Shown here one piece after another: positions 1,210 to 31,365 of a stretch of DNA of 32,913 nt. Origin of the DNA: an uncultured Oscillospiraceae bacterium. Its GTDB lineage: Bacteria > Bacillota > Clostridia > Oscillospirales > Oscillospiraceae. Both the position numbers and the translations under genes were made by a program. The DNA lies in assembly GCA_947629755.1 (NCBI GenBank), contig CANREY010000016.1, forward strand, positions 1 through 32,913, read 5' to 3'. The notes beneath the pieces were generated by a model. That model saw only the letters and a program-made list of their open reading frames with translations. It did no database searches and had not been told where the DNA came from. Each line of letters begins with the position of its first letter. Position 1 is the first letter of the stretch.

Positions 1210-1261
1210 ATTTCATTCTCCCAATCATTTGATTGAAATTACAGGCGACGGTACGTGCCGC

Positions 1262-4132: not shown

Positions 4133-5014
4133 ATGAGGGGTATCATAGTACGCAAGAAGTATACTGTGAGCAGCAAGTGCGAGTCCAGACTTTGCGTTGA
4201 CGACAACTGTGAGATATTGCTTTTTCTGCGGGGAGATATTCTTGTACACGTGAACGGCAGGAGCTATGTGCCGGAGCCGGGGGACATACTCCTGTTCGGC
4301 GGCGGGGAGATACATTCCCTGACGGTCAACCCCGGCCAGCCCTTCGAGCGGGTGTACATCTATTTTGACAAGCAGATATTCCGGCAGCTGTCGGATAAGG
4401 ATTACGACCTGCTGGCGTCCTTCAATATGGAGGAGGGCTCCTCCGGGACAAATCTTATCAGAACCAGATTCGCGCGCAAGTACTCGCTGGGCGAAAAGCT
4501 GGCGTCCATGTATGAGCTCTACCAGATGGACGCCCCGGATACGGCTGTCAGAATGCTGTCGCTGATGCTGGACATTCTGGTGAATGTCAATCTTGCCCAC
4601 AAGGAACAGCAGTCCTCCGAGGGGGAGGACGCCGAGGAGATAAACGGGGGAGAGAAGATACACGAGATCCTCCGGTACATCGTAAGCAACCTGAACGAGA
4701 AGTTCACGCTGGACAGCATATCGGCGCGGTTTTACATCAGCAAATATTACCTGTGCCACGAATTCAAAAGGGTCGTTGGAATGTCGTGTCTGGAGTATAT
4801 CCGCCAGAAGCGGATCGACAAGGCGCGGGAAAGGCTGCTGGGCGGCTGGCCGGTCAACGACGTTTGGCTGGATCTTGGGTTCAACGATTATGTGAGCTTT
4901 TACCGATCCTTCAAAAAGGTGACGGGAGTGTCGCCCAACGAGTATGTGGGGACGGAAAAGGCTCACTCGATCGATACAGACGGCGGCGAGCCGATTCATA
5001 ACGAAGGGAGTTGA
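4133..5014 (+). CDS. AraC-family transcriptional regulator
   Basis: N-terminal cupin-like region (VNGRSYVPEPGDILLFGGGEIHSL). C-terminal double HTH (FTLDSISARFYISKYYLCHEFKRVVGMSCLEYIRQKRIDKARERL...GFNDYVSFYRSFKKVTGVSPNEY). Confidence 0.92.
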   Translation: MRGIIVRKKYTVSSKCESRLCVDDNCEILLFLRGDILVHVNGRSYVPEPGDILLFGGGEIHSLTVNPGQPFERVYIYFDKQIFRQLSDKDYDLLASFNMEEGSSGTNLIRTRFARKYSLGEKLASMYELYQMDAPDTAVRMLSLMLDILVNVNLAHKEQQSSEGEDAEEINGGEKIHEILRYIVSNLNEKFTLDSISARFYISKYYLCHEFKRVVGMSCLEYIRQKRIDKARERLLGGWPVNDVWLDLGFNDYVSFYRSFKKVTGVSPNEYVGTEKAHSIDTDGGEPIHNEGS

Positions 5015-5020
5015 GGTATC

Positions 5021-8000
5021 CTGAAAAAGCTGCTTTATAAAATTTCCCAACACAGCATAGAATCCGTCGTCATAACGGTCGTCCTGATCGTTCTGGCCGC
5101 CGTGTTCATCGCGAGCAGAGCGCTGGGGCAGTCGGATCAGGAGCAGCTTGGCCCGGAGGACCTGGCCGCCCTTGAGCAGATGGCCTACCTTGAGCATGAG
5201 ACGTATGGGGAGGATCTGCCCACCTACAATCTGCTCAAGAGGACCTACGAGCAGGAGGGCCGCGCGGCGGCCGAGAGCGGCATCGACATTCCGGTCCTTG
5301 AGGCGGACACCGCCGGAGCGGGGGAGACGCGCACGGGGATCGCCGGGTACGACGGCGAGGCGCTCTTTTTAGCTGAGGACGTGGACGCGCTCTGGAGGTT
5401 CGAGGTGGAGAGCGAGGGCCTCTACCAGATCGTTTTGGAGTACTGCGGACCGGAGGGGGACGGCGCCAAGATACAGCGCCAGCTCCTCATCGACGGGAAG
5501 CTCCCCTGCGAGGAGGCCACCAACGTCTGCTTCTACCGCCACTTCGAGGAGACCGGCGAGGTGAAGCTCAACGAGATCGGTGACGAGGTCTGGCCCCACC
5601 AAGATGAGATCCTGCTGTGGCAGACCCAGGCGGCCTTCGATTCCAACGGCTTCGACCCGGAGCCCATGGCCTTCTATCTGACGCCGGGGACACACACCAT
5701 AGCGCTTGAGTTCGTGGACCAGCCCATGGCCATACGGGCTATTCGGCTGGAGCCCGCCGAGACTATCCCCACCTACGCCGATGTGTCCGCCCAGTATCAG
5801 CAGAACGGGTACAAGCGGGCCGCGTCCGGGCTGGGGTACTACGTGGAGGGCGAGGAGTCGTCATGGAGAAGCGACTCCATAATCCGCCGGGAGGCCAACA
5901 GCGATCCGGGGACCAGCCCCTTCTCCCTCACCAGCCGCGTGCTGAACGCCGTGGGCGGCAGCCGCTGGAACAGAGGCGAGCAGAGCGTCAGCTGGACATT
6001 GGAGGTGCCGGAGGACGGGCTCTATGAGATCGGATTGCGCGTCCTGCAGAGCAAAAACGAGGGAATGCCCTCCTACCGTAAGGTAATGATCGACGGCCAG
6101 GTCCCCTTCCGGGAGTTTCTGGAGTACCAGTTCCCCTACAACAAGTCCTGGTACGGCGAGGTCCTGTCGGACGAGAACGGGGAGCCCTATCTTGTGTATC
6201 TGGAGAAGGGCACTCACGAGCTGAGGCTGGTGGCCCAGATGGGTCCCCTGTCAGCCGTCATCGAGCGGACCACCAACGACATAGCGGTGCTGTCCGAGAT
6301 CACGAGGGACATCACCAAGATCACCGGCACCGAGCCGGACCCCAACTATGAATACGACCTGTACCGCCTGATGCCGGACCTGTCCGGGCAGCTGTCCGAG
6401 CTTGCCGACAGCGTGGAGGTCAGCGCGGATATACTGTCCATCATCACCAACAAGCGGGCCTCTACGGAGAACAGCTACCGGGCCACTGTCGACACGTTGC
6501 GGGAGTTCTCCGAGGACGTGGACGCCATACCAAAGGCATTAAGTGAGCTGGAGAACGCCCAGACGAGCCTCGGTTCATACATAACGAGCCTTAAGACCTC
6601 GCCACTACAAGTGGACTTTGTGCGGATACTGTCCCCTGAGGACAAATTTGAGGTCAAGACCTCCGGGTTCTTCCAGAAGGCGTATGTCTCCGCCGTCAAC
6701 TTCCTTATGTCCTTCGTGAAGGACTACGACGCCGTTGGCGCCACCCAGGAGGACGGGGAGAACGTGGTGCTGGACGTGTGGATCGGGCGCGGCTCCGAGT
6801 GGGGCGAGATACTCAAGGAGCTCATCGACGAGAAGTTCACCCCGGAGACGGGGATATACGTGAACCTGAACGTGATGCCCAGCAGCCAGCTCACCACCGG
6901 GGGCGTCAACGTCCTGATGCTCTCCATCAACTCCCACACCGCGCCGGACGTGGCGCTGTCGGTGGATTACAACCTGCCGTCGGAGTTCGCCTTCCGCGGG
7001 GCGGCGGCGGACCTTACGCAGTTCGACGACTACGAGGAGGTCTCCAAGTGGTTCTACCCGGACAGCATGGTGCCCTACATCTTCCGGGACGGCGTCTACG
7101 CCCTGCCGGAGACCATGGACTTCACCGTGATGTTCTACCGGGAGGACCTGCTGAGGGATCTGGACCTGAAGCTCCCGGACACCTGGGACGACCTATATAT
7201 GGATACCCTGCCGAAGCTATATGAGAACAGCATGTCCTTCAACCTGTCGGTGGACACGTCCGTCTCCTCAAGCTCTCCGGCGGCCCTGAGGGGCTTCACC
7301 ATGATGCTTTTGCAGAACGGCGGCTCCTATTATAAGGACGGCGGCCGGTCCAGCGCGCTGGATTCCGCCGAGGCGTACCAGGCGTTCAAATCCTGGACCG
7401 ATCTTTACAGCCAGTACGAGGTGGACGAGGAGTCCAACCTCTTTACCCGCATGAGGACGGGCGCCACGCCCATAGGCATCGGCGGCTATACCGAGTACAT
7501 GCAGTTTCTGACCTCCGCCCCTGAGCTCTACGGGCGCTGGGGCATCGCCAAGGTGCCGGGCTCCCTCAACGCGGACGGCACTATAAACCGCTCCACCGGC
7601 TCCATCTCAAAGACCGCGAACCTGATACTTGCCCAGTCGGATAAGCAGGAGGCCGCGTGGAAGTTCCTGAAGTGGTGGATGTCCGCGGACACCCAGGCCG
7701 AGTACGGCAGACAGCTGGAGGCCGTCATCGGCGAGTCCGCCAGATGGAACACCGCCAACGTGGAGGCGTTCTTCCGCCTTCCTTGGAGGACGGCGGACAA
7801 GGCCATAATCCAGGAGACGCTGGAGGAGGCCCAGGAGCAGTATATTATCCCCGGCGGCTATTTCACCAGCCGCCACCTGATCAACGCGTGGAACAGGGTC
7901 GTCGTCAACGACGAGAGGACGAGGGACGCGCTTGAAGAAGCGGTGAAGGACATCAACAAGGAGCTGATCTCGAAACGCGAGGAGTTCGGCTTACAGAATG

Positions 8001-8026
8001 TTGACGTCATTCCGCGGGAGGATTGA
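5021..8026 (+). CDS. Large membrane-anchored extracellular solute-binding protein: N-terminal TM anchor, two carbohydrate-binding-like beta modules, helical linker, C-terminal family-1 SBP domain
   Basis: The ORF track starts at GTG 5102, but the frame is open upstream to CTG 5021 and encodes LKKLLYKISQHSIESVVITVVLIVLAAVFIASRALGQ, an N-terminal TM/signal anchor, with GGGAG/GAGG upstream. The C-terminal SBP region includes VVLDVWIGRGSEWGEILKELIDEKFTPETGI, a typical sugar-SBP start. Confidence 0.85.
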   Translation: MKKLLYKISQHSIESVVITVVLIVLAAVFIASRALGQSDQEQLGPEDLAALEQMAYLEHETYGEDLPTYNLLKRTYEQEGRAAAESGIDIPVLEADTAGAGETRTGIAGYDGEALFLAEDVDALWRFEVESEGLYQIVLEYCGPEGDGAKIQRQLLIDGKLPCEEATNVCFYRHFEETGEVKLNEIGDEVWPHQDEILLWQTQAAFDSNGFDPEPMAFYLTPGTHTIALEFVDQPMAIRAIRLEPAETIPTYADVSAQYQQNGYKRAASGLGYYVEGEESSWRSDSIIRREANSDPGTSPFSLTSRVLNAVGGSRWNRGEQSVSWTLEVPEDGLYEIGLRVLQSKNEGMPSYRKVMIDGQVPFREFLEYQFPYNKSWYGEVLSDENGEPYLVYLEKGTHELRLVAQMGPLSAVIERTTNDIAVLSEITRDITKITGTEPDPNYEYDLYRLMPDLSGQLSELADSVEVSADILSIITNKRASTENSYRATVDTLREFSEDVDAIPKALSELENAQTSLGSYITSLKTSPLQVDFVRILSPEDKFEVKTSGFFQKAYVSAVNFLMSFVKDYDAVGATQEDGENVVLDVWIGRGSEWGEILKELIDEKFTPETGIYVNLNVMPSSQLTTGGVNVLMLSINSHTAPDVALSVDYNLPSEFAFRGAAADLTQFDDYEEVSKWFYPDSMVPYIFRDGVYALPETMDFTVMFYREDLLRDLDLKLPDTWDDLYMDTLPKLYENSMSFNLSVDTSVSSSSPAALRGFTMMLLQNGGSYYKDGGRSSALDSAEAYQAFKSWTDLYSQYEVDEESNLFTRMRTGATPIGIGGYTEYMQFLTSAPELYGRWGIAKVPGSLNADGTINRSTGSISKTANLILAQSDKQEAAWKFLKWWMSADTQAEYGRQLEAVIGESARWNTANVEAFFRLPWRTADKAIIQETLEEAQEQYIIPGGYFTSRHLINAWNRVVVNDERTRDALEEAVKDINKELISKREEFGLQNVDVIPRED

Positions 8027-8028
8027 GT

Positions 8029-8952
8029 ATGAAAATGCTTCAGGCACATAAAAAGAGGGCTCCCATGACCAGCGCGGAGAAGCGCAGGACCGTCACGGGG
8101 TATATGTTCCTGGCCCCGTTCCTGTTGCTGTTCGTCACCTTTACGATGATCCCCATCGCGGTGGCCATGGGCCTGAGCCTCACAAACTACAATCTCATCG
8201 AGAAGCCGGAGTTCGTGGGCCTTACCAATTACATAAACCTTATCCTTGAGGACGACGTGTTCCTGAAATCCCTTGGCAACACGCTGCTCTTTGCCGTGCT
8301 GACGGGGCCCACGGGCTACATCGCCTCGTTCTTGATGGCGTGGCTCATAAGCCTTATGAAGCGGGGGCGCGGAGCCTTCTCGCTGGCCTTCTACGCGCCC
8401 AGCCTTACCAGCGGCGTGGCGATGGCCACCATCTGGCTCATAATCTTCTCCGGCGACCGGAACGGCTACCTCAACGACTTCCTTTTGAATCTGGGGGTCA
8501 TCACGGAGCCGATATTGTGGACCAAGGACGCCGACTATCTTAAGTGGGTCATAGTCATCATATCCGTGTGGATGAGCATGGGCACCGGATTTTTGGTGTT
8601 CCTGGCCGGATTCCAGAACATCGACCCGTCCCTTTACGAGGCGGCCAGAATGGACGGACTTAAGAACAGGTTCCAGGAGCTCAGGTACATCACCATACCG
8701 CTGATGAAGCCCCAGCTTCTGTTCGGCGCCGTCAACTCCGTGGTGGGGGCCTTTGCCATATTCGACGTGGCCACATCGGTGGCGGGCATGCCAAGTCCAA
8801 ACTACGAAGCGCACACGATCGTGGCGCACCTGTATGATAACGCGTTTATCCGAATGAACATGGGTTACGCGTCCGCCGTGGCTATGATCCTGTTCCTCAT
8901 GACATTCATTGTAGGCCGTATTTGCTTCTATGTGTTTAAATCGGAGGATTGA
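8029..8952 (+). CDS. Carbohydrate ABC transporter permease (MalF/UgpA type), pair 1
   Basis: Multiple TM helices and the EAA loop YEAARMDGLKNRFQELRYITIPLMKPQ. ATG 8029 is preferred over the track's TTG 8023. Confidence 0.9.
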   Translation: MKMLQAHKKRAPMTSAEKRRTVTGYMFLAPFLLLFVTFTMIPIAVAMGLSLTNYNLIEKPEFVGLTNYINLILEDDVFLKSLGNTLLFAVLTGPTGYIASFLMAWLISLMKRGRGAFSLAFYAPSLTSGVAMATIWLIIFSGDRNGYLNDFLLNLGVITEPILWTKDADYLKWVIVIISVWMSMGTGFLVFLAGFQNIDPSLYEAARMDGLKNRFQELRYITIPLMKPQLLFGAVNSVVGAFAIFDVATSVAGMPSPNYEAHTIVAHLYDNAFIRMNMGYASAVAMILFLMTFIVGRICFYVFKSED

Positions 8953-8954
8953 CG

Positions 8955-9842
8955 ATGCGTTCTGTTATTGTTGATACATTGACCGGCAAGAGAGCTCACC
9001 GAAAGGTGGACATTCCGCATATCCTCCTTGTGATCTGTATGCTCGCGCTGGTGTGCTTCACCGTCCTTCCGATGGTGGCTATGGTGTGCCGGGCGTTCAT
9101 GCCGCTTGATGAGCTCTATGTTTACCCGCCGAGGATCTTTGTGAAGAAGCCGACATTATCCAATTTCTCGGACCTTCTCAACTCTCTGAACGCCTCCGCG
9201 GTGCCATTCACAAGGTACATATTCAACAGCCTTCTCACTACGGGCGTCTCAGTGTTCCTGAGCATATTCGTCTCCTGCGCCGGAGCCTACGGGCTTTCCA
9301 AGTTCAAGCCAAAAGGGTCAAAGACCATTTTCGCGGTGATCACCGCCGCTCTGATGTTCTCGTCCTACGTCACCCAGATACCTAACTATATGATCGTAAA
9401 CGGTTTGGGGCTGGTGAACAGCTACTGGGCGCTCATACTGCCCAAGATCGCGGTGGCGTACAACTTCTTCCTTGTCAAGCAGTTCGCTGACCAGCTGCCC
9501 GACTCCATACTGGAGGCGGCGCGGATCGACGGCGCGGGGGAGCTTCGCATCTTCTGGAACGTCGCCATGCCCCTTCTGAAGCCGGCCTGGAGCACTCTGG
9601 CTGTCTTCTCATTCGTCAGCAACTGGAACGACTACTTCTCGGCGCTTGTTTATATAAACAAGGACGCGATGAAGACGCTTCCCCTGGCATTACAGTCACT
9701 GGCCGGCGGCGCGGGCGTTGTGGCCCGTTCCGGCTCGGTCGGCGCGGCGACGCTCATCACCACGCTCCCGACCATCGTTATCTTCTGTATCCTGAGAGGC
9801 AGGGTCATGCAGACGATGACATATTCGGGAATCAAGAGCTGA
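8955..9842 (+). CDS. Carbohydrate ABC transporter permease (MalG/UgpE type), pair 1
   Basis: EAA loop LEAARIDGAGELRIFWNVAMPLLKPAW. ATG 8955 is preferred over TTG 8949. Confidence 0.9.
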   Translation: MRSVIVDTLTGKRAHRKVDIPHILLVICMLALVCFTVLPMVAMVCRAFMPLDELYVYPPRIFVKKPTLSNFSDLLNSLNASAVPFTRYIFNSLLTTGVSVFLSIFVSCAGAYGLSKFKPKGSKTIFAVITAALMFSSYVTQIPNYMIVNGLGLVNSYWALILPKIAVAYNFFLVKQFADQLPDSILEAARIDGAGELRIFWNVAMPLLKPAWSTLAVFSFVSNWNDYFSALVYINKDAMKTLPLALQSLAGGAGVVARSGSVGAATLITTLPTIVIFCILRGRVMQTMTYSGIKS

Positions 9843-9855
9843 TTGGAGTACGAAT

Positions 9856-11301
9856 ATGAAACGGGGAAAGAAAGTACTGATTTTTCTTCTGACGTTCTCC
9901 GTCCTGCTTCCGTTCGTATCCGCGGCGGAGGCGAGGGCCTCCTCCGACGACTTGTCACTGGTGGCAAACGAAGATGGACTCTTTGACTCCATACCGAACG
10001 TTTACGACGTGGAGACCACCTACAAGAATCTGGGGGAGTACGGGACGCTGAACCACGCGGAGGACCTGTTCATCGACGATCAGGACCAGCTTTACATCGC
10101 CGATACAGGCAACAACCGGATCCTGAAGCTCTCCAAGGACGGGAAGGTCTTGGCGGAATTCAAAGAGGGCTACGACCTGGCGTTCAAGGGGCCCAAGGGC
10201 GTCTATGTGCACCCGGACGGGACCATTTGGGTGGCGGACACCGGCAACTACCGTATAGTCCGCCTCAATCCCGACGGCTCGGACAAGGAGGTCTACTATA
10301 AGCCGGAGAGCTCCCTTTTGGAGGAGAGCTTCACCTTCGCCCCTGAGAAGATATACGTGTCCCAGACCGGATACATCTACGTGCTCAAGGGCTCCAACCT
10401 GATGCTGATGGACGCCAAGAACGAGTTCCGGGGGTATCTGGGGGCGGCGACGGTGCCCTTCAGCTTCCAGCGGTTCCTCATACGGACCTTCGGCAGCAGG
10501 TCCCAGAAGGAGAGGACCGTCAAGCAGGAGCCGTCGTCCTATACAAACTTTATGATCGCCTCCGACGGAATGGCCTACGGCATTCTTGCCAATGAGCAGA
10601 CGGGACAGATACGAAAGCTCAACTCCGTGGGCACCAATACTTATCCGGAATTGCCCTACGGGTACAGCATCACCTTAGATGATACGAACTTTTCCGTGGT
10701 CATGTTCTCGGACATAAACGTGATGGACAACGGGATAATCACTCTGGCCGATCAGAACACGGGACTTCTCTACCAGTACGATCAGGACGGCGACCTGCTG
10801 GCCATGTTCGGAGGGAACGGCGGCGTAAAGGGGACATACACCACGCCGAACAGCATAGTCTCCGACAGCCTCGGCAGGCTCTACGTGCTGGACTACACCA
10901 CGAACACGGTGACCGTACTGCAGCCCACAAGGTTCATAGAGCTTATCCACCAGGCGGTGGCCCTCTATGACGTGGGGCGGTACGAGGAATCCAAGGAATA
11001 CTGGCAGCAGGTGCTGGCCATCGACTCCAACTACGCGCTGGCCCATTCGGGCTACGCGAAGGTGCTGTACAAGGAGGGCATGTACAAGGAATCCACCGAG
11101 GAGTATATCCTTGGCAGTGACAAGGAGGGCTATTCCCAGAGCTTCGCCGAGTACCGGCACTCCCTTTTCCGCCAGTATTTTGGCTGGATCGTATTGGCTA
11201 TCGTGGTGGTCTGCGCCGCCGTCTGGATCGCCTTTGTCAAGGTCAGAAAGTGGAGCGACGATATGGCCCACAAGCTTGAGATGGGAGGGTGGCTGAAGTG
11301 A
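9856..11301 (+). CDS. Secreted/membrane NHL-repeat beta-propeller protein with TPR-like segment and C-terminal TM helix
   Basis: Signal peptide (VLIFLLTFSVLLPFVSAAEA). NHL motifs (DLFIDDQDQLYIADTGNNRILKLSKDG; GVYVHPDGTIWVADTGNYRIVRLNPDG). TPR-like YDVGRYEESKEYWQQVLAIDSNYALAHSGYAKVLYKEGMYKES. TM WIVLAIVVVCAAVWIAFV. Confidence 0.85.
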   Translation: MKRGKKVLIFLLTFSVLLPFVSAAEARASSDDLSLVANEDGLFDSIPNVYDVETTYKNLGEYGTLNHAEDLFIDDQDQLYIADTGNNRILKLSKDGKVLAEFKEGYDLAFKGPKGVYVHPDGTIWVADTGNYRIVRLNPDGSDKEVYYKPESSLLEESFTFAPEKIYVSQTGYIYVLKGSNLMLMDAKNEFRGYLGAATVPFSFQRFLIRTFGSRSQKERTVKQEPSSYTNFMIASDGMAYGILANEQTGQIRKLNSVGTNTYPELPYGYSITLDDTNFSVVMFSDINVMDNGIITLADQNTGLLYQYDQDGDLLAMFGGNGGVKGTYTTPNSIVSDSLGRLYVLDYTTNTVTVLQPTRFIELIHQAVALYDVGRYEESKEYWQQVLAIDSNYALAHSGYAKVLYKEGMYKESTEEYILGSDKEGYSQSFAEYRHSLFRQYFGWIVLAIVVVCAAVWIAFVKVRKWSDDMAHKLEMGGWLK

Positions 11302-11912
11302 AGATAATAAAAATGTCCGTGCTGGTGCTGTTCCACCCGGCGGTGGCTTTCACCTATATCCAAAAGGAGCGCAACAAATTCAGTTGGTTCCCGGTGATCC
11401 TCCTTCTGGGACTGGGGATACTGATCCGGCTTTTCTCGCTGGAGTTCACCCACTTCCCGCTGTCGAGCATCACCGCCAGATCCAACCTGTTTTTGGAGGT
11501 AGCCAAGCTCTTTATACCGCTCATATCCTGGGGCATATGCTCCTACCTCATGACCACTATTCTGGACGGCGAGACGCTCTTCCGGGAGTCCATGCTGGCC
11601 GTCTCCTACGCGCTGGTGCCCTACATACTCTTCATGATCCCCCTGACCCTCCTTTCAAGGATCATGGACGTGAGCCAGCTGGGGCTCTATACCACCATCG
11701 AGACGGTCATTTTGGGGTGGGTGATACTTCTCATCATCATCAGCCTTCGGGAGATGAACCACTTCACCATCGGCAAGACGGTGGGCGTCGTGTTCCTTTC
11801 CCTGTTCACCGTGGCGGTGCTCTGGTGCGCGGTGGCGCTCCTCTATTCAATCTGCACTCAGTTCATAGATTTCGTAAAGGAAGTAATCACGGAACTCAGG
11901 TACAAGTTCTGA
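11298..11912 (+). CDS. YIP1-family-like polytopic membrane protein
   Basis: ~204 aa, about five hydrophobic segments, N-terminal HPAVAFTYIQKERNKFSW. GTG 11298 overlaps the upstream stop (GTGA). Confidence 0.65.
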   Translation: MKIIKMSVLVLFHPAVAFTYIQKERNKFSWFPVILLLGLGILIRLFSLEFTHFPLSSITARSNLFLEVAKLFIPLISWGICSYLMTTILDGETLFRESMLAVSYALVPYILFMIPLTLLSRIMDVSQLGLYTTIETVILGWVILLIIISLREMNHFTIGKTVGVVFLSLFTVAVLWCAVALLYSICTQFIDFVKEVITELRYKF

Positions 11913-11927
11913 AAAAAGGAGCGGACA

Positions 11928-14120
11928 ATGAAGAAACATGTTGGATTCTTACGACTGACGGGACTGCTCCTGTGCCTGTGCGTGTTCCTGAGTGCCTGCG
12001 GACGCAAGGAAAGCGGCTCTTTGGACGGCTATCTGTTCAAGCCGAAGCAGCCGGTCAACCTGTCTGAGGTGCGCGTTAAGGGCGACACGCTGGAGAACGA
12101 AAGCTTCAGGCTGGAGCTTATGAACAACTATTCCGAGGTCAGGCTCACGGATAAGGCCACCGGGGACGTGTGGTCGTCCTCAATGAACGATCCCAACTTC
12201 GACCCGTCCAAGGTCAGCGGAAAGTGGAAGAACAGGATACAGTCCATGTTCACGCTGAACGTGACGAACCTTAAGACCGGCGTGGGCGTGGTGGTCAACT
12301 ACGACGAGGCCGGGACCGATTACACGGCGACACCCTACGCCATCGGATCGGGCATTGGCGTCACCTACGACATGAAGCTGGCGGGTATCCGCTTCAATCT
12401 GGAGTTCACACTGACGGACAATGGATTTTCAATTCGTATCCCCGCCGGTAGCGTGGAGGAGTACGGCGGTACCTTCAGTATCGTGTCCATTGACCTTCTG
12501 CAGTTCTTCGCGGGAGCCACCGACGGGCAGGAGGGGTACCTCTTTTATCCCGACGGGAGCGGGGCGATCCTCCGCTTCGACGATATGTCACATCTCGGCG
12601 AGGCCTCGGTCATCTACAATGTGTACGGAGACATTCGCTCCGACCGGAACCTGAAGGGGACCTTTGAACAGAGCCAGGCGGACGTGCTGCTGCCGGTGTT
12701 CGGGGCCAACTACGGGGAGCGGGGGTTCGTCGCCTACATCACCTCCGGGGAGGAGAGCTCAAATATCACGGTGTCCCCGTCCACGCGGGTGGTGAGTATA
12801 AACAGCGTCTACCCGTCGTTCATCTTCCGCCGGGGCTTTGACGACCCACGCGTCACCACAAGCAAGGTGGTGAAATATGACGACGATATGCTAAAGACCG
12901 ACTATGAGGTCCACTACGAGATACTTCCCCACGGCCACGCCCAGTATTCGGATATGGCCCGCGCTTACAGGGACTATCTCATGTCCACCGACCAAATCGG
13001 AAAGCGGCCGGAGAGCTCCGTACCAACGCTGTCTGTGGACGTTTTCATGGGCATCAAGGAGGAGGGGCTGATCTTCGACACCTTCCAGAGCGTCACCACC
13101 TTCAGTCAGGCCAGGGACATCATGGCGGATCTGAAACACAGCGTGGATCTGGACTTGGACGTGTCGCTCTTAGGCTGGACAAAGGGAGGCTACAGGACGG
13201 AGCCCAAGTATTTCCCGGCAAACGGCAAGCTGGGCGGCAACAGCGGCCTTAAGGAGCTGGCCCAATTTGCCAGCCAGAACGGCATCGGGCTCAATCTGGC
13301 GGCAAACTTCATGACCGCCGACGCCCAAGCGGGAGGGTACTCCCAGACCACGGACATCGTGTTCCTTGGGAACTACCAGGTGCTGACGGACCTGCGCAAC
13401 ACGGTACGGGTGATAAGCCCCGACGCGGCATACAGGAACTTCTCAAAATTCATGACGAAGGCGACCGATTACCCCCTGTCCGGCCTGAAGCTGGAGAATC
13501 TGGGCAGTATGCTCTATTACAGCTACGGCTCCCGGAACATGACGCTTGCCTCGGAGTGCAGGGCCTACTGGCAGAAGATAATGGCGGAGACCAAGTCGTC
13601 TCTGGGCAGTGTCACCAGCGAAGGCGGCAACCTCTACACACTGGCCTACGCCGACAAGGTCACCGATATACCGGCGGAGGACGCCGGGTACCAGATGACC
13701 ACCGAGGAGGTCCCGTTCTACCAGATCGTGGTCCACGGACTGGTGGACTACACCGGGGAGGCGTATAACCTGTCCAGCGACTCCGGCCAGCTTTTACTGA
13801 AGTGGATCGAATACGGATATGAGCCGTATTTTGAGCTCACCAGCGAGTCGGCGGAGAAGCTCATAAACACCGAGTACAACGAGCTGTACAGCTCCATGTA
13901 CACCGACTGGAAGCAGGAGATCATAGACGCCTGCGGCCAGATCGAGGCGGCCCTCGGAAAAGTGCAGGACGCCATGATCGTCTCCCATGACAGGCTGGCG
14001 GAGGGACTATACCGGGTGACATACGACAACGGCGTAAGGGTATATGTCAACTACAACAGCGAGCCCGCCAAGGCTGACGGCGTGAGTGTGGGAGCGCAAG
14101 GCTGGGAGGTGGTCCAATGA
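11928..14120 (+). CDS. DUF5696-like lipoprotein, putative glycoside-hydrolase-like beta-sandwich plus barrel protein
   Basis: Lipobox LCVFLSACGRK. Recognisable blocks LRLTDKATGDVW-type start, GLKLENLGSMLYYSYG, EEVPFYQIVVHGLVDYTGEAYNLS and C-terminal YRVTYDNGVRVYVNYN. Confidence 0.7.
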   Translation: MKKHVGFLRLTGLLLCLCVFLSACGRKESGSLDGYLFKPKQPVNLSEVRVKGDTLENESFRLELMNNYSEVRLTDKATGDVWSSSMNDPNFDPSKVSGKWKNRIQSMFTLNVTNLKTGVGVVVNYDEAGTDYTATPYAIGSGIGVTYDMKLAGIRFNLEFTLTDNGFSIRIPAGSVEEYGGTFSIVSIDLLQFFAGATDGQEGYLFYPDGSGAILRFDDMSHLGEASVIYNVYGDIRSDRNLKGTFEQSQADVLLPVFGANYGERGFVAYITSGEESSNITVSPSTRVVSINSVYPSFIFRRGFDDPRVTTSKVVKYDDDMLKTDYEVHYEILPHGHAQYSDMARAYRDYLMSTDQIGKRPESSVPTLSVDVFMGIKEEGLIFDTFQSVTTFSQARDIMADLKHSVDLDLDVSLLGWTKGGYRTEPKYFPANGKLGGNSGLKELAQFASQNGIGLNLAANFMTADAQAGGYSQTTDIVFLGNYQVLTDLRNTVRVISPDAAYRNFSKFMTKATDYPLSGLKLENLGSMLYYSYGSRNMTLASECRAYWQKIMAETKSSLGSVTSEGGNLYTLAYADKVTDIPAEDAGYQMTTEEVPFYQIVVHGLVDYTGEAYNLSSDSGQLLLKWIEYGYEPYFELTSESAEKLINTEYNELYSSMYTDWKQEIIDACGQIEAALGKVQDAMIVSHDRLAEGLYRVTYDNGVRVYVNYNSEPAKADGVSVGAQGWEVVQ

Positions 14121-15016
14121 CTATCAAAACGAAAAAGACCGGAACGGCCATGGTGAAGCCACGACGTTTGAGCTTGGGGCGGAAGCACACGTTGGAGGTC
14201 CTCATCTTCCTGTCTCCGTGGATCATCGGGACCTGCGTATTCTTCCTAAACGCCATCATCTCCTCGGTGAGGCTCAGCTTCAGCAACATAGCGCAGCTCA
14301 AGGGCTTCGTCATGGAGTGGGCCGGGCTTGAAAACTACGAGTATATCCTGGCTTACGACATAAACTTCATGCCCATCTTTATGACGGTGGTGAAGGACAC
14401 CCTCATCAACACGCCGCTGACGCTGGTGTTCTCCCTGATCATCGCCCTTCTCATAAACAAGCCCATGTTCGGGCGGGGCTTCTTCAGGACCTGCTTCTTC
14501 ATTCCGGTCCTTCTGGGTACCGGCTATGTCATGCAGCAGCTGTTGCAGATCGACGCCATGGGCACGGTGGGCGTGGGCATAGTCCTGCCGCCGGTGCTCC
14601 GGGGGCTCTTAGGGAACACCATCGCCACGGTGGTCCAGTCGTTCTTGGACCGTATCACACTGATCTTGTGGCAGTCCGGCGTTCAGATCATACTGTTCCT
14701 GGCGGGACTTCAGGGCATCTCGCCCACCCTCTATGAGGCGGCGAAGGTGGACGGGGCCACCCAGTGGGAGATGTTCTGGAAGATAACGCTCCCGATGATC
14801 TCCCCGATAATCCTTCTCAATTTCGTCTACACCATGGTGACCTACTTTACCTCCTCGGACAACGAGCTGGTGGGTTACGTGCTGGACCAGGTGTTCGTCA
14901 ATCAGGAGTTCGGCCGGGGCGCCGCCATGGGCTGGGTGTACTTCGGGTTCGTGTTCCTCCTGTGCGGCATTATCTTCGGCGCAATCAAGATCTCCTCGCG
15001 CTCGCGGGACAAGTAA
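14117..15016 (+). CDS. Carbohydrate ABC transporter permease, pair 2
   Basis: EAA loop YEAAKVDGATQWEMFWKITLPMISP. ATGA overlap with the upstream CDS. Confidence 0.9.
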   Translation: MTIKTKKTGTAMVKPRRLSLGRKHTLEVLIFLSPWIIGTCVFFLNAIISSVRLSFSNIAQLKGFVMEWAGLENYEYILAYDINFMPIFMTVVKDTLINTPLTLVFSLIIALLINKPMFGRGFFRTCFFIPVLLGTGYVMQQLLQIDAMGTVGVGIVLPPVLRGLLGNTIATVVQSFLDRITLILWQSGVQIILFLAGLQGISPTLYEAAKVDGATQWEMFWKITLPMISPIILLNFVYTMVTYFTSSDNELVGYVLDQVFVNQEFGRGAAMGWVYFGFVFLLCGIIFGAIKISSRSRDK

Positions 15017-15029
15017 GGAGGGACGAGAT

Positions 15030-16001
15030 ATGAAATTGAATGGAAAAGTCAGACAGACAGGAATATCCCACTCCAGACCGCGCTGGAGCTTTAACTCGCT
15101 GGCGGCGGCGTCCATATACCAGCGGATCATCGTCAGGGTCTTCTACTATCTGGTGCTCTGCAGTCTGGCGTTCGTGTTCCTTTATCCCTTCCTCACCATG
15201 GTCATCACGTCGCTTATGTCGGACGCGGACCTCATCAACATCACGGTCAAGTGGATACCCAATGAGGTCAAGTGGTCCAACTATAAGATCGCGGCCCAAC
15301 AGCTGAGCTACAAGCGGTACTTCTTCAACTCCCTGCTCATCGCGGGCCTGTCCACCGTGGGACACGTGCTGTCCTGCGCCTTCGTCGGATACGGCTTCGC
15401 CCGGTACAAGTTCAAGCTCAGCGGGCCCCTTTTCGCGGTGGTCATACTGTCCATGCTGGTGCCGGTGCAGACCATCATCTTCCCCCTGTACATTCAGTAC
15501 AGCAAGATGGGGTGGCTGGACAGCTACAAGCCGCTCATAGTCCCCACGTTCTTCGGCTACGGCCTGAACGGCGCGTTCTTCATCTTCGTGTTCCGCCAGT
15601 TCTTCAAGGGACTGCCCAAGGAGATGGAGGAGGCGGCCAGGATCGACGGGTGCGGGCCCCTGCGGACGTTCTTCCGCATCATGCTGCCCATGTCCAAGTC
15701 GTCTATCCTGGTGACCACGGTGCTCTCCTTCGTGTGGCACTGGAACGACTACTTTGAGCCCAACATCTATATCCGGACCCCAGGCAAGCGGGTACTGCCC
15801 AGTATGCTCCCCAGCCTCTACGCGCTCCTGAACAGCGAGGACGCCATGGAGCTCGTTATGGAGGACGGAGGATTTACCTTCAACAACGCCATGCTGATGG
15901 CGGGCACGTTCCTGGTGGTGCTCCCGGTGCTCATCGTCTACTCCATCGTGCAAAAGCAGTTCATGGAGGGCGTTGAGAGGTCCGGTATCGCCGGTATGTG
16001 A
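15030..16001 (+). CDS. Carbohydrate ABC transporter permease, pair 2
   Basis: EAA loop EEAARIDGCGPLRTFFRIMLPMSKSS, multiple TM helices. Confidence 0.9.
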   Translation: MKLNGKVRQTGISHSRPRWSFNSLAAASIYQRIIVRVFYYLVLCSLAFVFLYPFLTMVITSLMSDADLINITVKWIPNEVKWSNYKIAAQQLSYKRYFFNSLLIAGLSTVGHVLSCAFVGYGFARYKFKLSGPLFAVVILSMLVPVQTIIFPLYIQYSKMGWLDSYKPLIVPTFFGYGLNGAFFIFVFRQFFKGLPKEMEEAARIDGCGPLRTFFRIMLPMSKSSILVTTVLSFVWHWNDYFEPNIYIRTPGKRVLPSMLPSLYALLNSEDAMELVMEDGGFTFNNAMLMAGTFLVVLPVLIVYSIVQKQFMEGVERSGIAGM

Positions 16002-16048
16002 CGCATGCTCAGGGCCGGTCAAAGCTTGATACCGTTTATCGGCCCTCA

Positions 16049-16101
16049 GCGTTTTTATCAGTTATAAAAACGCGCCGCGGACCACGAAAGCGGCGGCGCG
16101 C
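16049..16101 (+). terminator. Overlapping stem-loops between permease and SBP genes (attenuator or mRNA-stabilising structure)
   Basis: Perfect 10-bp stem GCGTTTTTAT-CAGTT-ATAAAAACGC (16049-16073). It overlaps CGCGCCGC (16071-16078)/GCGGCGCG (16093-16100), which is followed by the AT-rich CTTTATAAAAATTTTAA. Confidence 0.5.
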
Positions 16102-16132
16102 TTTATAAAAATTTTAACAGGAGGAAAAAACA

Positions 16133-17860
16133 ATGAAAAAGTCAAAGCTGATCTGCCTGCTTCTGGCGCTTGTTCTGTGCCTGAGCCTTGTTGCCTGCGG
16201 CGGCAACAACGACAGCACCAACCCGCCCAGCGGCAATGACAGCACCAACCCGCCCAGTGGGAACGACGGGACCAACCCCCCGGAGACCGGCGGCCAGGGC
16301 GAGACCGAGCCGACCGACAAGTACGCTTGGGAGCAGACATGGCCCGACGGACAGGTCATCACATGGCTGGTCCTGGACCAGAGCGCGTCCGCTGACTACT
16401 CCCGCTACATGGACCTGAAGGCGATCAACATGATCGAGGAGATGTTCCACGTGGACATTCAGTTCGAGGAGATCATCGGCAAGAAGGAGAACAAGGAAAA
16501 TTACCTGCTCCGCCTCACCGAGGATCCGCTCCCCGACGTCATCGGCTACAACAACGAGGAGAACTACGTTGGCGGTATCGTCGGCCTGTACAACGACGGC
16601 CTGATCATTGAGCTCAATGACATCATCGAGTCCAAGATGCCCCACCTTCAGGACATCTTCGCCGAGCACCCCCAGGTGGCTAAGGACATGAGCACCAACG
16701 ACGGCAAGTACCTCTACTTCCAGAGGATCAATCCTCTTGAGCAGCCCGGCGACTACTGGTCCTCCACCACCACGGGCCTTGTGATGCGCCAGAATTGGCT
16801 GGACGCCGTAGGCCTTGAGGTCCCCACCAACATGGACGAGTGGTACGAGGTCCTCACCGCGTTCAAGACCATGGACCCCAACGGCAACGGACAGTTCGAC
16901 GAGATCCCCTTCCACACCTCCGGCAGCGGCATCATGCTCTTTGAGGGCGCCTACGGGTTCCTCAGCGGCATCTATATCGACCCCGACACCGGCAAGGTGG
17001 ACTACGGCCAGAGGACCCAGAAGTACAAGGCCTATCTGGAGGAGATGAACAAGTGGTACACCGAGGGCCTTCTGGCCACCGATCTGGCGGCAGGCTCCGC
17101 TGACTACGAGGAGCTGGTGGCTCTGGACCAGGTGGGCTCCTGGAAGGGCAGCTCCAACAACAACACCAAGGGTTATATGGATACCCTGAGAGAGATGAAC
17201 CCCGACGAGGCGGTCACTCCTGTTCCCTGGCCCGCCACCGCTGACGGCACCGTCTATTCCGAGCGCGGCGTCTCCAGCAAGCAGAGGGGCACCGTGGTCA
17301 TCACCACCGACGGCGCCAAGGATCAGGCAAAGCTTGACGCTATCGCCACCGTTATGGACTACATGTTCTCTGAGGAGGGCTCAACGCTCCTGACCTGGGG
17401 CGAGGAGGGCGTTTCCTACACGGTCAACCCCGACGGGACAAAGAGCCTGACTGAGGAGGGCGCCGCACAGGTGGAGATCCCCAGCGGCGAGGTCCCCCAG
17501 ATGTATAAGCTCTACGGCAACGTCTCCGGCTATCTGCCCTCCTTCGGCAACTTCGATGTTGACCTTGCCTCCCGTGACGAGTGGTACAACAACTCCGCCA
17601 AGGTCTGGGCCGACGCCGACTTCAGTCTGGTCTATCCCAGCGCAATCGCGCTGACGGCTGAGCAGACCGAGGAGCTGGCCAAGTGGACCGGCAACAACAC
17701 CGAGCTCGACCAGTACATCGCCGACATGAAGACCAAGTTCATCACCGGCGAGGAGCCCCTGTCCAGCTTCGACACTTATGTCGCCAACCTTGAGAGAATG
17801 GGGATCCAGAACATCGTCGACATCTGGCAGACCGCCCTTGACGCGTACAACGCGAAATAA
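16133..17860 (+). CDS. Lipoprotein extracellular solute-binding protein (LplA/AlgQ-like)
   Basis: Signal peptide and lipobox LSLVACGGN; 575 aa; EF-hand-like DPNGNGQFDE; RBS AGGAGG upstream. Confidence 0.88.
   Translation: MKKSKLICLLLALVLCLSLVACGGNNDSTNPPSGNDSTNPPSGNDGTNPPETGGQGETEPTDKYAWEQTWPDGQVITWLVLDQSASADYSRYMDLKAINMIEEMFHVDIQFEEIIGKKENKENYLLRLTEDPLPDVIGYNNEENYVGGIVGLYNDGLIIELNDIIESKMPHLQDIFAEHPQVAKDMSTNDGKYLYFQRINPLEQPGDYWSSTTTGLVMRQNWLDAVGLEVPTNMDEWYEVLTAFKTMDPNGNGQFDEIPFHTSGSGIMLFEGAYGFLSGIYIDPDTGKVDYGQRTQKYKAYLEEMNKWYTEGLLATDLAAGSADYEELVALDQVGSWKGSSNNNTKGYMDTLREMNPDEAVTPVPWPATADGTVYSERGVSSKQRGTVVITTDGAKDQAKLDAIATVMDYMFSEEGSTLLTWGEEGVSYTVNPDGTKSLTEEGAAQVEIPSGEVPQMYKLYGNVSGYLPSFGNFDVDLASRDEWYNNSAKVWADADFSLVYPSAIALTAEQTEELAKWTGNNTELDQYIADMKTKFITGEEPLSSFDTYVANLERMGIQNIVDIWQTALDAYNAK
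16211..16282 (+). repeat. Tandem 27-bp repeat encoding the NDSTNPPSG linker (about 2.5 copies)
   Basis: gacagcaccaacccgcccagcggcaat / gacagcaccaacccgcccagtgggaac / gacgggaccaacccc. Confidence 0.8.
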
Positions 17861-17987: not shown

Positions 17988-18016
17988 TTGGCTTGGCCGC
18001 GGGACCGTGATATACT
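17988..18016 (+). promoter_or_regulatory. SigA-type promoter for the CAZyme operon
   Basis: TTGGCT (17988-17993), 17-nt spacer, TATACT (18011-18016), about 35 nt upstream of ATG 18051. Confidence 0.55.
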
Positions 18017-18050
18017 GGACGGGAAAGCACAAAGGAGAGGAGCCGCGAAT

Positions 18051-19181
18051 ATGGAGCTGGAGAAAATGGAACGGTATATCGGGCAGGTCTATTCCGACGA
18101 GAACAGACTCAAGGGCGACAAATGGAGCTACGACGACGCGTGCCTGCTGCTCGGCGCGATCCAGATGTACCGGGCGACCCGGAGAGAGGAATTCCGGGAG
18201 GTGGTCCTTCGGTACGCGGACCACTACGTGTCCGGCGCCGGGGATATTAGCACCTATAGGCCGGAGGACTTCAAGCTGGACGACATATTGGGCGGCAGGA
18301 TACTCCTTTTCGCGCTGGAGGAGACCGGCGAGCCCCGGTATCAGCACGCGGTGGAGGGCCTTCTTGACCAGCTTGAGCATCAGCCCAGGACAGGGGCGGG
18401 CAGCTACTGGCACAAGAAGATATACCCAAATCAGGTGTGGCTGGACGGACTTTTTATGGCTCAGCCCTTCAGAATGGCGTATGACACGAGATACGGCAAA
18501 AGGGACAAGTATATAGATATTCTGAATCAGTTCTATAACGCGCGCGACACATTGCGGGACCCGAAGACGGGGCTTTATCACCACGGGTATGACGAGTCCC
18601 GCGCCGTATTCTGGGCCGACCCGGTAACAGGCCGCTCTAAGAGCTTCTGGCTCCGGGGGATCGGCTGGTATCTGATGGCTCTGGTGGATACGGTGGAGGA
18701 GATGGACCGCAAGGTATACGACTGCATGAGACCGCTTCAGGATATTTACAAGGAGGCTATCCGCGGGCTCCTCACATACGCGGACAATAAGACGGGCCTA
18801 TTCTACCAGGTGGTGGACCGGCCGGACCTGGCGGGAAATTACATGGAGACCTCAGGCTCGGCAATGGTGGCGGCGTCCATTTTCAAGGCGTGCAGGCTCA
18901 GGCTTATCCTGATGGAGAAGTACCGGCCCGCCGCGGAGAAAATACTGGATACGCTGATCGGCGAGAGGCTCACGGAGAGGGACGGAAGGCTGGTGCTGAC
19001 GGGAACGTGTCAGGGGGCCGGGCTGGGCCCGCGGGAGGGCCGCCGGGACGGGAGCCCGGAATACTACCTCTCGGAGCCGGTACGCGACGATGACAACAAG
19101 GGGATAGGCGCGGCGGTCATGGCATATGCCCAGTATCTGTTGCTGAAAAAATGGGAGACCGGGGTGAGGTGGAAGGTATGA
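18051..19181 (+). CDS. GH105 unsaturated rhamnogalacturonyl/glucuronyl hydrolase-like
   Basis: YteR/YesR-like sequence (SYWHKKIYPNQVWLDGLFMAQPF, WLRGIGWYLMALVDT). ATG 18051 with AAAGGAGAGG RBS; the track start at TTG 17988 lies in the promoter. Confidence 0.88.
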   Translation: MELEKMERYIGQVYSDENRLKGDKWSYDDACLLLGAIQMYRATRREEFREVVLRYADHYVSGAGDISTYRPEDFKLDDILGGRILLFALEETGEPRYQHAVEGLLDQLEHQPRTGAGSYWHKKIYPNQVWLDGLFMAQPFRMAYDTRYGKRDKYIDILNQFYNARDTLRDPKTGLYHHGYDESRAVFWADPVTGRSKSFWLRGIGWYLMALVDTVEEMDRKVYDCMRPLQDIYKEAIRGLLTYADNKTGLFYQVVDRPDLAGNYMETSGSAMVAASIFKACRLRLILMEKYRPAAEKILDTLIGERLTERDGRLVLTGTCQGAGLGPREGRRDGSPEYYLSEPVRDDDNKGIGAAVMAYAQYLLLKKWETGVRWKV

Positions 19182-20752
19182 AGCAAAATACTTTACCGGA
19201 GCTCCGGGTGTTGCATGTCACCGCGAGACTGGCGGTGCTCCAACTACCGGAGGCGGAGGCCGACTACGGCACGGAGGAATACGACATCTACGTGGACGGG
19301 GAGAAGCGCCTGACCACCGCAAAGACCGTGAAGTCCCTTTTCGGACTGAAGCCGGACACCGAGTACACGGTCCGGGCGGGGCGCGGGAGCGAGCTTACGC
19401 GGGAGGTGACGTTCAGGACCGAAAAGGAATTCGTCACCCTGAACGTGCGGGATTTCGGCGCCTTTGGCAACGGGATCACCGACGACACCCAGAGCGTCCA
19501 GGCGGCCATCATGACGTGCCCGCCCGGCGGGAGGGTATTTATCCCGGAGGGCGTATTCCCGGTGACCAACATCTTTTTGAAAAGCGGCCTCATATTGGAG
19601 CTGGGCGAGGGCGCGGTACTGAAGGGGATACCCGACAGGAACCGTATCCCCGTGCTTCCCGGACGCGTCGAAAGCTGGGACGAGGAGGACGAGTTCCTGC
19701 CCGCCGTGTGGGAGGGCGCGCCCATGGACTCCTACGCGGGACTGCTCACCGGAATGTACGCGGAGAACGTGACCATCTGCGGACAGGGGACCATCGACGG
19801 GTCCGCCAACTTTGAAAACTGGTGGAACGAGAAGCGGAACGCCGGCGAGCCGGCGCGGCCAAGGCTCATCTTTTTGAACCACTGCAGGGACGTGGTCATT
19901 CAGGGCGTCACGCTTAAGGACGCGCCGGCATGGAACATACACCTCTTCTTTTGCGAGCGCGTGAAGTGCCTTGACATGTGGATCACGGCGCCGTACCACT
20001 CCCACAACACCGACGGGCTGGTGCCGGAGTCCAGCGCTCAGGTGGAGGCGGCGGGCGTCCGCTTTTCCTCAGGCAACGACTGCGTATCCATAAAATCAGG
20101 CACGTTCTACATGGGGAAGGCATACCACACGCCCACGCGGGATATTTTCATACACCACTGTCTGATGGAGCGCGGACACGGCGGCGTCACCATCGGAAGC
20201 GAGATGGCCGGGAGCGTGGACAACGTACACATCACCGACTGCCGCTTCATCGCCACGGACAGGGGCCTTCGGGTCAAGACGAGGCGCGGCCGGGGCAGCG
20301 AGGCGTATATAGGCGGGATATGCTTCGATAACGTGAAAATGGACGGCGTCAAATCCGCATTCATCATCAACTGCTACTACTACTGCGGCGTGGACGGCCG
20401 GACGGAGTACGTGTACGCCAAAAAGCCCCTTCCCGTGGACGACCGCACCCCAAGGATCGGCACCGTGACCATCAGGAATGTGCGGTGCAAGGACTGCCAC
20501 ATGGTGGGCATATTCTTCTACGGACTGCCGGAGTCGAAGATAGAGAGCGTTCTCATGGAGAACGTCCGTATAGGGTTCGCCCGCAACGCCATCGGCGGAA
20601 GACCGGCGATGATGTCCGGCTGTGCCGTCACAAAGAAACAGGGCATCTTCATACGTAACGCGAAGAAGGTCATCTTCCGGGACGTGGAGCTCTCCGGGTA
20701 CATCGGGGAGCCTATCGACATAGAGGCCGTGGACCAGTGGGAGTGGACGTGA
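19178..20752 (+). CDS. GH28 polygalacturonase-like with N-terminal FnIII-like domain
   Basis: NTDG, SGNDCVSIKSG, RGHGGVTIGSEM and RVKTRRGRG motifs. N-terminal YDIYVDGEKRLTTAKTVKSLFGLKPDTEYTVRAG is FnIII-like. ATGA overlap with GH105. Confidence 0.88.
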   Translation: MKQNTLPELRVLHVTARLAVLQLPEAEADYGTEEYDIYVDGEKRLTTAKTVKSLFGLKPDTEYTVRAGRGSELTREVTFRTEKEFVTLNVRDFGAFGNGITDDTQSVQAAIMTCPPGGRVFIPEGVFPVTNIFLKSGLILELGEGAVLKGIPDRNRIPVLPGRVESWDEEDEFLPAVWEGAPMDSYAGLLTGMYAENVTICGQGTIDGSANFENWWNEKRNAGEPARPRLIFLNHCRDVVIQGVTLKDAPAWNIHLFFCERVKCLDMWITAPYHSHNTDGLVPESSAQVEAAGVRFSSGNDCVSIKSGTFYMGKAYHTPTRDIFIHHCLMERGHGGVTIGSEMAGSVDNVHITDCRFIATDRGLRVKTRRGRGSEAYIGGICFDNVKMDGVKSAFIINCYYYCGVDGRTEYVYAKKPLPVDDRTPRIGTVTIRNVRCKDCHMVGIFFYGLPESKIESVLMENVRIGFARNAIGGRPAMMSGCAVTKKQGIFIRNAKKVIFRDVELSGYIGEPIDIEAVDQWEWT

Positions 20753-20771
20753 TATAAGCATGGAGGATAAT

Positions 20772-21749
20772 ATGGATTTGGAAAGGCAACAGGACGTACT
20801 GCGGCTGACAGTGGGACGGGACTGCGAGTATACGACCGTATCGGACGCGGTCCGCTTCGCTCTGACGTGCCCGGAACGGCCGGTGGTGATACACGTGCGC
20901 CCCGGCGTCTATTACGAAAAGCCGGAGGTCCGGCGGGGCGATATGACTATCGAGGGCGAGGGCGCGGAGAGCACGGTCATCACCTACGACGACTACGCCA
21001 ACGCGATAATGCCCGACGGGGAGAAGCGCGGCACCTTTCGGAGCTATACACTTCTCGTCACGGGCTCACATGTGCGCCTGCGGGATCTGACGGTGGAAAA
21101 TTCCGCCGGACCGAGAGAGGGCAGCGGACAGTGCGTCGCCCTCTACGCGGAGGGGGACGACATTGTGGTGGAGCGGTGCCGGCTCATAGGGGCCCAGGAC
21201 ACGCTGTTCACCGGGCCGCTGCCACCGCGCGAGATCGAGAAGAACGGCTTTCGCGGGCCCACACAGTACGCCCCAAGGGTCAACGGGAGACAGTATTATT
21301 TTGACACCTACATATGCGGGACGGTGGACTTCATCTTTGGAAGCGCCACGGCGTATTTCAAAAACTGCACCGTCCATTCCATCTTGCGGCCCGGATACGT
21401 CACCGCGGCGTCCACCCCACAGGGGCAGAAGTACGGATACGTGTTCGAGAGCTGCCGGTTCACCGGGGACGTGCCGCCGGGGACAGTGTACCTTGGCAGG
21501 CCATGGAGGGAATACGCCAAAACGGTGATCCTACGCTCTTGGCTGGGGGAGCACATTCGCCCGGAGAAGTGGCACGACTGGAACAAGGAGGCGGCCCATA
21601 CATGCGCCTTCTACGCCGAATATGAAAATTACGGCCCCGGCGCCGCCGGCGCGGGAGTCCCCTGGGCCCACACTCTGACGGAGAAAGAGGCGGAGGAATA
21701 CACGCTGGAAAAGATAGGATACCCTGAGACATGGGACGGTCGATTTTAA
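20772..21749 (+). CDS. CE8 pectinesterase (pectin methylesterase)
   Basis: Motifs LIGAQDTLFTG, YICGTVDFIFGSA and YLGRPWREYAKT. ATG 20772 is preceded by GGAGG; the track start is 20760. Confidence 0.9.
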   Translation: MDLERQQDVLRLTVGRDCEYTTVSDAVRFALTCPERPVVIHVRPGVYYEKPEVRRGDMTIEGEGAESTVITYDDYANAIMPDGEKRGTFRSYTLLVTGSHVRLRDLTVENSAGPREGSGQCVALYAEGDDIVVERCRLIGAQDTLFTGPLPPREIEKNGFRGPTQYAPRVNGRQYYFDTYICGTVDFIFGSATAYFKNCTVHSILRPGYVTAASTPQGQKYGYVFESCRFTGDVPPGTVYLGRPWREYAKTVILRSWLGEHIRPEKWHDWNKEAAHTCAFYAEYENYGPGAAGAGVPWAHTLTEKEAEEYTLEKIGYPETWDGRF

Positions 21750-21763
21750 CGGAGGGACGACAG

Positions 21764-24642: not shown

Positions 24643-24745
24643 AACGCCGTTTTGCCGGGATCAAGATGAAAAAAGCAGGGAATGCGGAGAAGCCGGGACT
24701 TTATGTCCTGCCAATATGGGGGAAATTTTACGGAAATCGGGCGAA

Positions 24746-30010: not shown

Positions 30011-30015
30011 GCGGC

Positions 30016-31338: not shown

Positions 31339-31365
31339 ATGTTTTTCAATCGAAAGGAGCATAAA

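Follow-up and report, generated by a model that had tools for sequence, protein, structure and literature searches.

A conserved gene block in Clostridia putatively encodes a membrane-anchored system that captures and imports large plant oligosaccharides

Introduction

The uptake of large plant-cell-wall fragments by Gram-positive gut and rumen bacteria is poorly understood in comparison with the SusCD systems of Bacteroidetes. The window examined here, an entire 32,913-bp contig from a Clostridia genome of 2.20 Mb and 97.5% completeness, raises this question in a concrete form: why should one run of genes combine two pairs of ATP-binding cassette (ABC) permeases and two substrate-binding proteins (SBPs) with three conserved proteins that are not themselves transport components? 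Our analysis indicates that the core of this run (5021-16001) is a conserved genetic unit, and we favor, at a probability of roughly 0.6, the reading that it encodes a membrane-anchored system for the capture and import of large plant oligosaccharides. The survey presented below yields a defined gene set and a testable role for three families (NHL-TPR, Yip1-like and DUF5696); in the last of these, a glycosidase fold seems to have become a transporter subunit.

Organization and conservation of the block

Pfam matches and open reading frames (ORFs) recovered all nine genes of the run on the plus strand between 5,021 and 17,860, in the order SBP1, permeases P1a and P1b, NHL/TPR protein, Yip1-domain protein, DUF5696 protein, permeases P2a and P2b, and SBP2, just as the first-pass annotation of this DNA had read them. 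From SBP1 to P2b, adjacent genes overlap by 4-13 nt or are separated by at most 15 nt, SBP2 follows P2b after 131 nt, and no ATPase gene lies inside the block.

That annotation had proposed a gene-neighborhood survey of DUF5696 homologues, which we ran on 391 Clostridia genomes, retrieving for 95 long DUF5696 copies as much as 20 kb of surrounding sequence; the association came through it strongly. DUF5696 is found in 90 of these genomes and Yip1 in 114, while long DUF5696 genes (n = 100) occur in 78, or about a fifth. A Yip1 gene lies just upstream, on the same strand, of 93 of the 100 long DUF5696 genes, against about 0.04 expected by chance, and the median gap between the two domain matches in these 93 pairs is 677 bp. 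The 22 short or partial DUF5696 matches in the same genomes all lack a Yip1 neighbor. The complete order, from SBP1 through the first permease pair, NHL/Yip1 and DUF5696 to the second permease pair, is intact in 76 of the 95 loci. Most of the remaining 19 (12 loci) run off the contig or the fetched region; two carry P1b downstream of SBP2, two from the same genome lack P2b, one being at a contig end as well, and single loci have genes inserted in DUF5696, are decayed, or are split by the ORF rule. The same order recurs in 64 of the 80 best-matching public loci, including those of Paenibacillus, Cohnella and Caldicoprobacter, and the PGAP annotation of two plasmids agrees with it. Butyrivibrio fibrisolvens D1 has a copy of the block on pNP243. 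Chance or neutral clustering is ruled out by the Yip1 adjacency and the number of intact blocks.

The seven units show correlated pairwise protein distances across 74 loci (r of 0.83-0.94), but genome relatedness contributes to such correlations, and synteny is therefore the stronger evidence. Together with the gene fusions described below, these observations uphold the proposal that the accessory genes belong with the transporter genes, and the recurrence of such neighborhoods in Paenibacillaceae and Clostridia, suggested in the first-pass annotation, proved correct.

The closest public relative of this DUF5696 protein (L154; 72% identity) comes from a metagenome-assembled genome labelled uncultured Oscillospiraceae, isolate 'Lapin-020', whose source was probably a rabbit. 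Two genomes that hold intact copies also hold a damaged one (L071, L080): one of these has DUF5696 broken by two opposite-strand ORFs resembling a mobile element, and the other has decayed to split ORFs.

Fold and catalytic positions of DUF5696

The DUF5696 gene (11928-14120, plus strand; Pfam E 1.7e-159) encodes a lipoprotein in this copy, and its homologues are likewise anchored at the N-terminus; a transmembrane (TM) scan showed that almost all homologues of SBP1, NHL and DUF5696 are membrane-anchored. The AlphaFold2 (AF2) model of the protein (pLDDT 89.4) has a GH129/GH101-type fold. Foldseek ranked GH129 structures (ZgGH129, NagBb) first, followed by GH101 and GH36, with 5opq, 8rzk and 5wzn as top matches (E 1.7e-31, TM-score 0.66-0.73), and the DUF5696 profile detects ZgGH129 (E ~1e-16) and NagBb (~3e-9) by sequence as well. 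GH129 itself gave only one match among 196 Clostridia genomes.

In stand-alone short DUF5696 proteins, an IDV and an SE motif are almost invariant and lie, as expected, at beta4 and beta5; from the fold and established knowledge of GH129 and GH101, they would be the catalytic residues. A profile alignment (P 100, E 6.5e-51) places this pair, in the protein encoded here, at approximately N524 (or E523) and E565. Among 89 DUF5696 proteins from the module, an acid is present at 523/524 in 48 and at 565 in 18, and both sites are acidic in only 12, such that the Asp nucleophile and Glu acid/base on which GH129 catalysis relies are not retained in the family. Because this catalytic pair is not conserved, the module DUF5696 is probably a degenerate, glycan-binding GH129-like pseudo-hydrolase. 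It shares its fold with GH129 enzymes and the GH101/GH36 superfamily and has detectable profile homology to GH129; it differs from them in its unconserved Asp/Glu positions and in being fixed inside a permease operon.

These data bear directly on the earlier suggestion that DUF5696 is a surface enzyme, in which an active, membrane-anchored GH129-like glycosidase would trim glycans prior to import. The high-confidence model and the homology to ZgGH129 and NagBb are what such an enzyme would present, and this particular copy may be active, as E523 and E565 place acids near both mapped positions. The absence of one or both acids in most module members, the lack of an E565 equivalent even in L154, and the retention of the IDV...SE motif by the stand-alone short relatives instead make this explanation unlikely. 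A conserved active enzyme is ruled out for the module family, with this E523- and E565-bearing member left aside, and the surface-enzyme role was not borne out: the fold is GH129-like, but the carboxylates of the short relatives are not conserved.

No transporter block was found alongside the short proteins (L141-L149 and L019; ~560-600 aa), which, judged by the motif they keep, resemble a still uncharacterised family of active GH129-like enzymes.

Substrate-binding proteins, permeases and ATPase

SBP1 (5021-8026, plus strand; ~1,001 aa) was assigned by Pfam, AF2 modelling (pLDDT 88.6), PDB profile search and Foldseek. Its layout comprises an N-terminal TM helix, beta-sandwiches at residues ~80-247 and ~273-407, a helical/coiled-coil segment at ~410-525, for which PDB profile matches were coiled coils only, and an SBP domain at ~580-960. 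The SBP domain is of the MalE/SBP_bac_1 type used by CUT1 importers (Pfam E 9e-23), and its Foldseek matches are sugar SBPs. The beta-sandwich region resembles CBM35-type domains (CBM, carbohydrate-binding module) in the PDB, with the best profile match in cycloisomaltooligosaccharide glucanotransferase (CITase; E 5.8e-11) and weaker ones to the CBM35s 2vzp and 2w47; in some SBP1 relatives, CBM_35 or CBM_6 is matched at this region. The start codon of SBP1 is uncertain, as no ATG, GTG or TTG precedes GTG 5102 and initiation there loses the TM helix. Initiation at CTG 5021 (or ATC 5018), behind GGGAGTTGAGG, regains the helix, which is present in 73 of 82 SBP1 homologues.

The four permeases, all BPD_transp_1 proteins by Pfam on the plus strand, are P1a (8023-8952; TTG start, 4-nt overlap with SBP1), P1b (8949-9842; TTG start), P2a (14117-15016) and P2b (15030-16001). 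Aligned loops show that the EAA loop for ATPase coupling is intact in each (EAARIDG in P1b), giving twice the usual permease number of a CUT1 importer; a loss of coupling in some permeases, suspected from an over-strict motif search, was dismissed on this alignment. P1a, P1b, P2a and P2b fall into four separate orthologous families (344/344 queries), which excludes recent duplication of one permease pair. Four OB_MalK matches place MalK-type ATPases elsewhere in the genome, as CUT1 importers would need, and in a Paenibacillus cellulosilyticus plasmid copy (L234) a ugpC ATPase gene lies immediately upstream of SBP1.

Two departures from the usual permease arrangement were observed. In L085 and L090, P1b is relocated downstream of SBP2, altering the order while keeping the permease content. 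In L134 and L135 (genome G335), a surface-type protein of 1.6-1.9 kaa (CarboxypepD_reg and SdrD_B, with CBM_4_9 in one) follows P2a at the expected place of P2b.

SBP2 (16133-17860, plus strand) carries a lipobox; Pfam gave no match for it. A phmmer search of the PDB aligned residues ~109-573 with 5xs8 (E 9e-34) and AlgQ1 (E 9e-28), identifying it as an AlgQ1/AlgQ2-type lipoprotein, a family known to bind uronate oligosaccharides. SBP2 is thereby like the SBPs of the Sphingomonas alginate ABC importer; in contrast to that system, SBP2 is facultative here and the core has a different SBP1 and extra proteins. In 55 of the 95 loci, a second SBP was detected no more than two genes from the block. 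None was detected in the other 40, where divergent SBPs are imperfectly detected and some loci are cut short, and the P2 pair therefore often lacks a neighboring SBP of its own. The two complete importer sets described in the first-pass annotation consequently stand for this copy and fall for the conserved core, since the second SBP is facultative.

The main rival explanation holds that the operon encodes two separate CUT1 importers, P1 with SBP1 and P2 with SBP2 or other SBPs, and that NHL-TPR, Yip1 and DUF5696 serve in assembly or quality control outside the working complex. The different orthologous families of the two pairs and the adjacency of a second SBP in a subset of loci favor it, as does the fact that Yip1-like proteins are general membrane proteins. 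The loci in which no second SBP was detected, subject to the limits just given, speak against it, as does the tight co-evolution of the P2 pair and accessory genes with SBP1 and DUF5696. We regard separate importers as possible but doubtful.

The NHL-TPR and Yip1 unit

Between the two permease pairs lie an NHL beta-propeller and TPR protein (9856-11301, plus strand; Pfam and TM scan) and a Yip1-domain multi-pass membrane protein (11289-11912, plus strand; Pfam), whose genes overlap by 13 nt. NHL/TPR proteins have a signal or anchor at the N-terminus and a TM helix at the C-terminus, and a sequence search of the PDB with Yip1 returned no match. In 43 of the 93 Yip1-DUF5696 pairs the Yip1 reading frame exceeds 480 aa, mostly at ~700 aa, and is an NHL/TPR fusion. 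Because they are often one polypeptide, NHL-TPR and Yip1 are predicted to act as one unit.

Alternatively, the accessory proteins could form a surface glycan sensor, with DUF5696 and the NHL propeller outside and TPR/Yip1 in the membrane, that steers the importer or its transcription. Degenerate enzyme folds frequently serve as ligand binders. An AraC-family regulator gene (AraC_binding and HTH_18 by Pfam; 4133-5014, plus strand) precedes the block here, ending 6 nt before SBP1, and histidine kinase and AraC genes lie near some Paenibacillus copies. The accessory proteins, however, have no conserved signalling output domain, and the regulators lie outside the conserved core, making a sensor quite improbable.

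Proposed mechanism

Under the capture-and-import reading that we favor, the CBMs of SBP1 and DUF5696 would keep a long glycan bound at the membrane, and the SBP domain of SBP1, plus SBP2 where present, would pass chains to both permease pairs. The NHL-TPR-Yip1 unit may organize the permeases or chaperone their assembly, with energy presumably supplied by shared MalK/MsmX-type ATPases encoded elsewhere. In this copy the imported oligosaccharide would then be cut by pectinesterase, GH28, GH88, GH43 and GH95 enzymes that have no secretion signal, under AraC control.

Several points weigh against this interpretation. That the block products associate and transport is a prediction from sequence and modelled structure; the role given to NHL-TPR-Yip1 is a guess from topology; and co-inheritance also fits two separate importers in one operon. 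In addition, the catalytic-site acids of this DUF5696 copy are what an enzyme would carry, one genome's copy (L134) apparently lacks P2b, and some copies adjoin non-CAZyme genes (CAZyme, carbohydrate-active enzyme), such as those for LLM oxidoreductases in P. cellulosilyticus, so the cargo may not always be a glycan.

That the block proteins form one physical assembly, the 'envelope complex' of the first-pass annotation, is an inference from sequence. In its strongest form, a single supercomplex of two ABC importers, a tethered CBM-bearing SBP, a pseudo-glycosidase and an NHL-TPR-Yip1 scaffold would thread long glycans across the single-membrane envelope. We put this forward tentatively and consider it rather unlikely; if true, the supercomplex would give Gram-positive bacteria a functional equivalent of SusCD in Bacteroidetes or of macromolecule import in Sphingomonas.

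Relation to known systems

The closest functional parallels are YtcQP-YteP and YesOPQ of B. subtilis, two MsmX-dependent SBP/permease sets in polygalacturonan and rhamnogalacturonan I (RG-I) uptake (PMC5730181). They resemble the present locus in combining an SBP with two EAA-loop permeases, an ATPase encoded elsewhere, adjacent pectin CAZymes and the uptake, predicted for the present locus, of galacturonate or rhamnose-galacturonate oligomers (PMC5730181). In contrast to these systems, the block described here encodes an SBP of ~1,000 aa that is TM-anchored and bears CBM-like domains, and it combines two pairs of permeases with three conserved proteins that are not transport components. The maltodextrin (mdx) CUT1 cluster of B. 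subtilis and Listeria also encodes YvdJ, a membrane protein whose function is unknown (PMC2860498). Its likeness to the Yip1/NHL unit is one of position; the mdx cluster differs in having a single small protein of this kind and one permease pair.

Among the open-access papers searched, we found none describing an importer block with such helpers and no full text naming DUF5696, though subscription journals may contain an earlier description. Nor did we find an open-access full-text paper linking Yip1 family proteins with polysaccharide utilisation, subscription journals being mostly outside the search.

Cargo and flanking genes

Downstream of the block, on the plus strand, Pfam assigns genes for GH88 (17988-19181), GH28 (19151-20752), pectinesterase (20760-21749), GH28 (21731-23062), GH43 (23059-24642), GH95 (26692-28974), an SGNH esterase (28976-30010), a beta-lactamase-fold hydrolase (29914-31338) and GH43 (31339-32910), none of whose products carries a signal. 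The AraC gene ahead and the pectin-directed series behind thus match the earlier description of the locus, and the clustering of regulator, ABC importer and CAZymes is that of a Gram-positive polysaccharide utilisation locus, here and in the nearest relatives (L154-L159). GH88, GH28, pectinesterase, GH43 and GH95 genes adjoin the block in these relatives too, and L154 also has the upstream AraC gene. Because the closest relatives carry the same pectin CAZymes beside the block, the cargo in this clade is likely pectic. Uronate-oligosaccharide cargo, as first proposed for this copy, gains support from these shared CAZymes, the AlgQ-like SBP2 and the CBM35-like domains of SBP1.

A hydropathy test found no N-terminal signal in the CAZymes of this locus, nor in the examined GH88, GH28 and pectinesterase homologues of its relatives. 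As the linked CAZymes lack signal peptides, trimming and cleavage are probably intracellular and would follow import, contrary to the surface trimming proposed earlier. Apparently cytoplasmic pectin processing, by signal-less pectinesterase and GH28, is a feature of the relatives as well. A cytoplasmic pectinesterase together with two polygalacturonase-family enzymes implies that methylated oligomers enter the cell, and the cargo of this copy is probably a methyl-esterified, branched pectic oligosaccharide. The genome has seven GH28 genes, and no PL1-type pectate lyase was found in it.

Other copies of the block neighbor genes for GH5, GH9, GH10, GH16, GH26, GH94 and CBM65, all plant-cell-wall CAZymes. 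Since CAZyme neighbors differ among copies and are sometimes replaced by non-CAZymes, the core is probably a general-purpose system whose cargo varies. The L234 plasmid copy has, in place of CAZymes, flanking genes for the ugpC ATPase, LLM flavin oxidoreductases and additional SBPs, which suggests a different cargo.

Two further features lie close to the block in this window. An exporter-type ABC half-transporter gene (ABC_membrane and ABC_tran; 24566-26671) sits between GH43 and GH95, and ABC-exporter-like genes are found near the block in some near relatives as well. A GH31 gene and a nucleoside-hydrolase-like gene (316-3682, minus strand) are divergent from the AraC gene.

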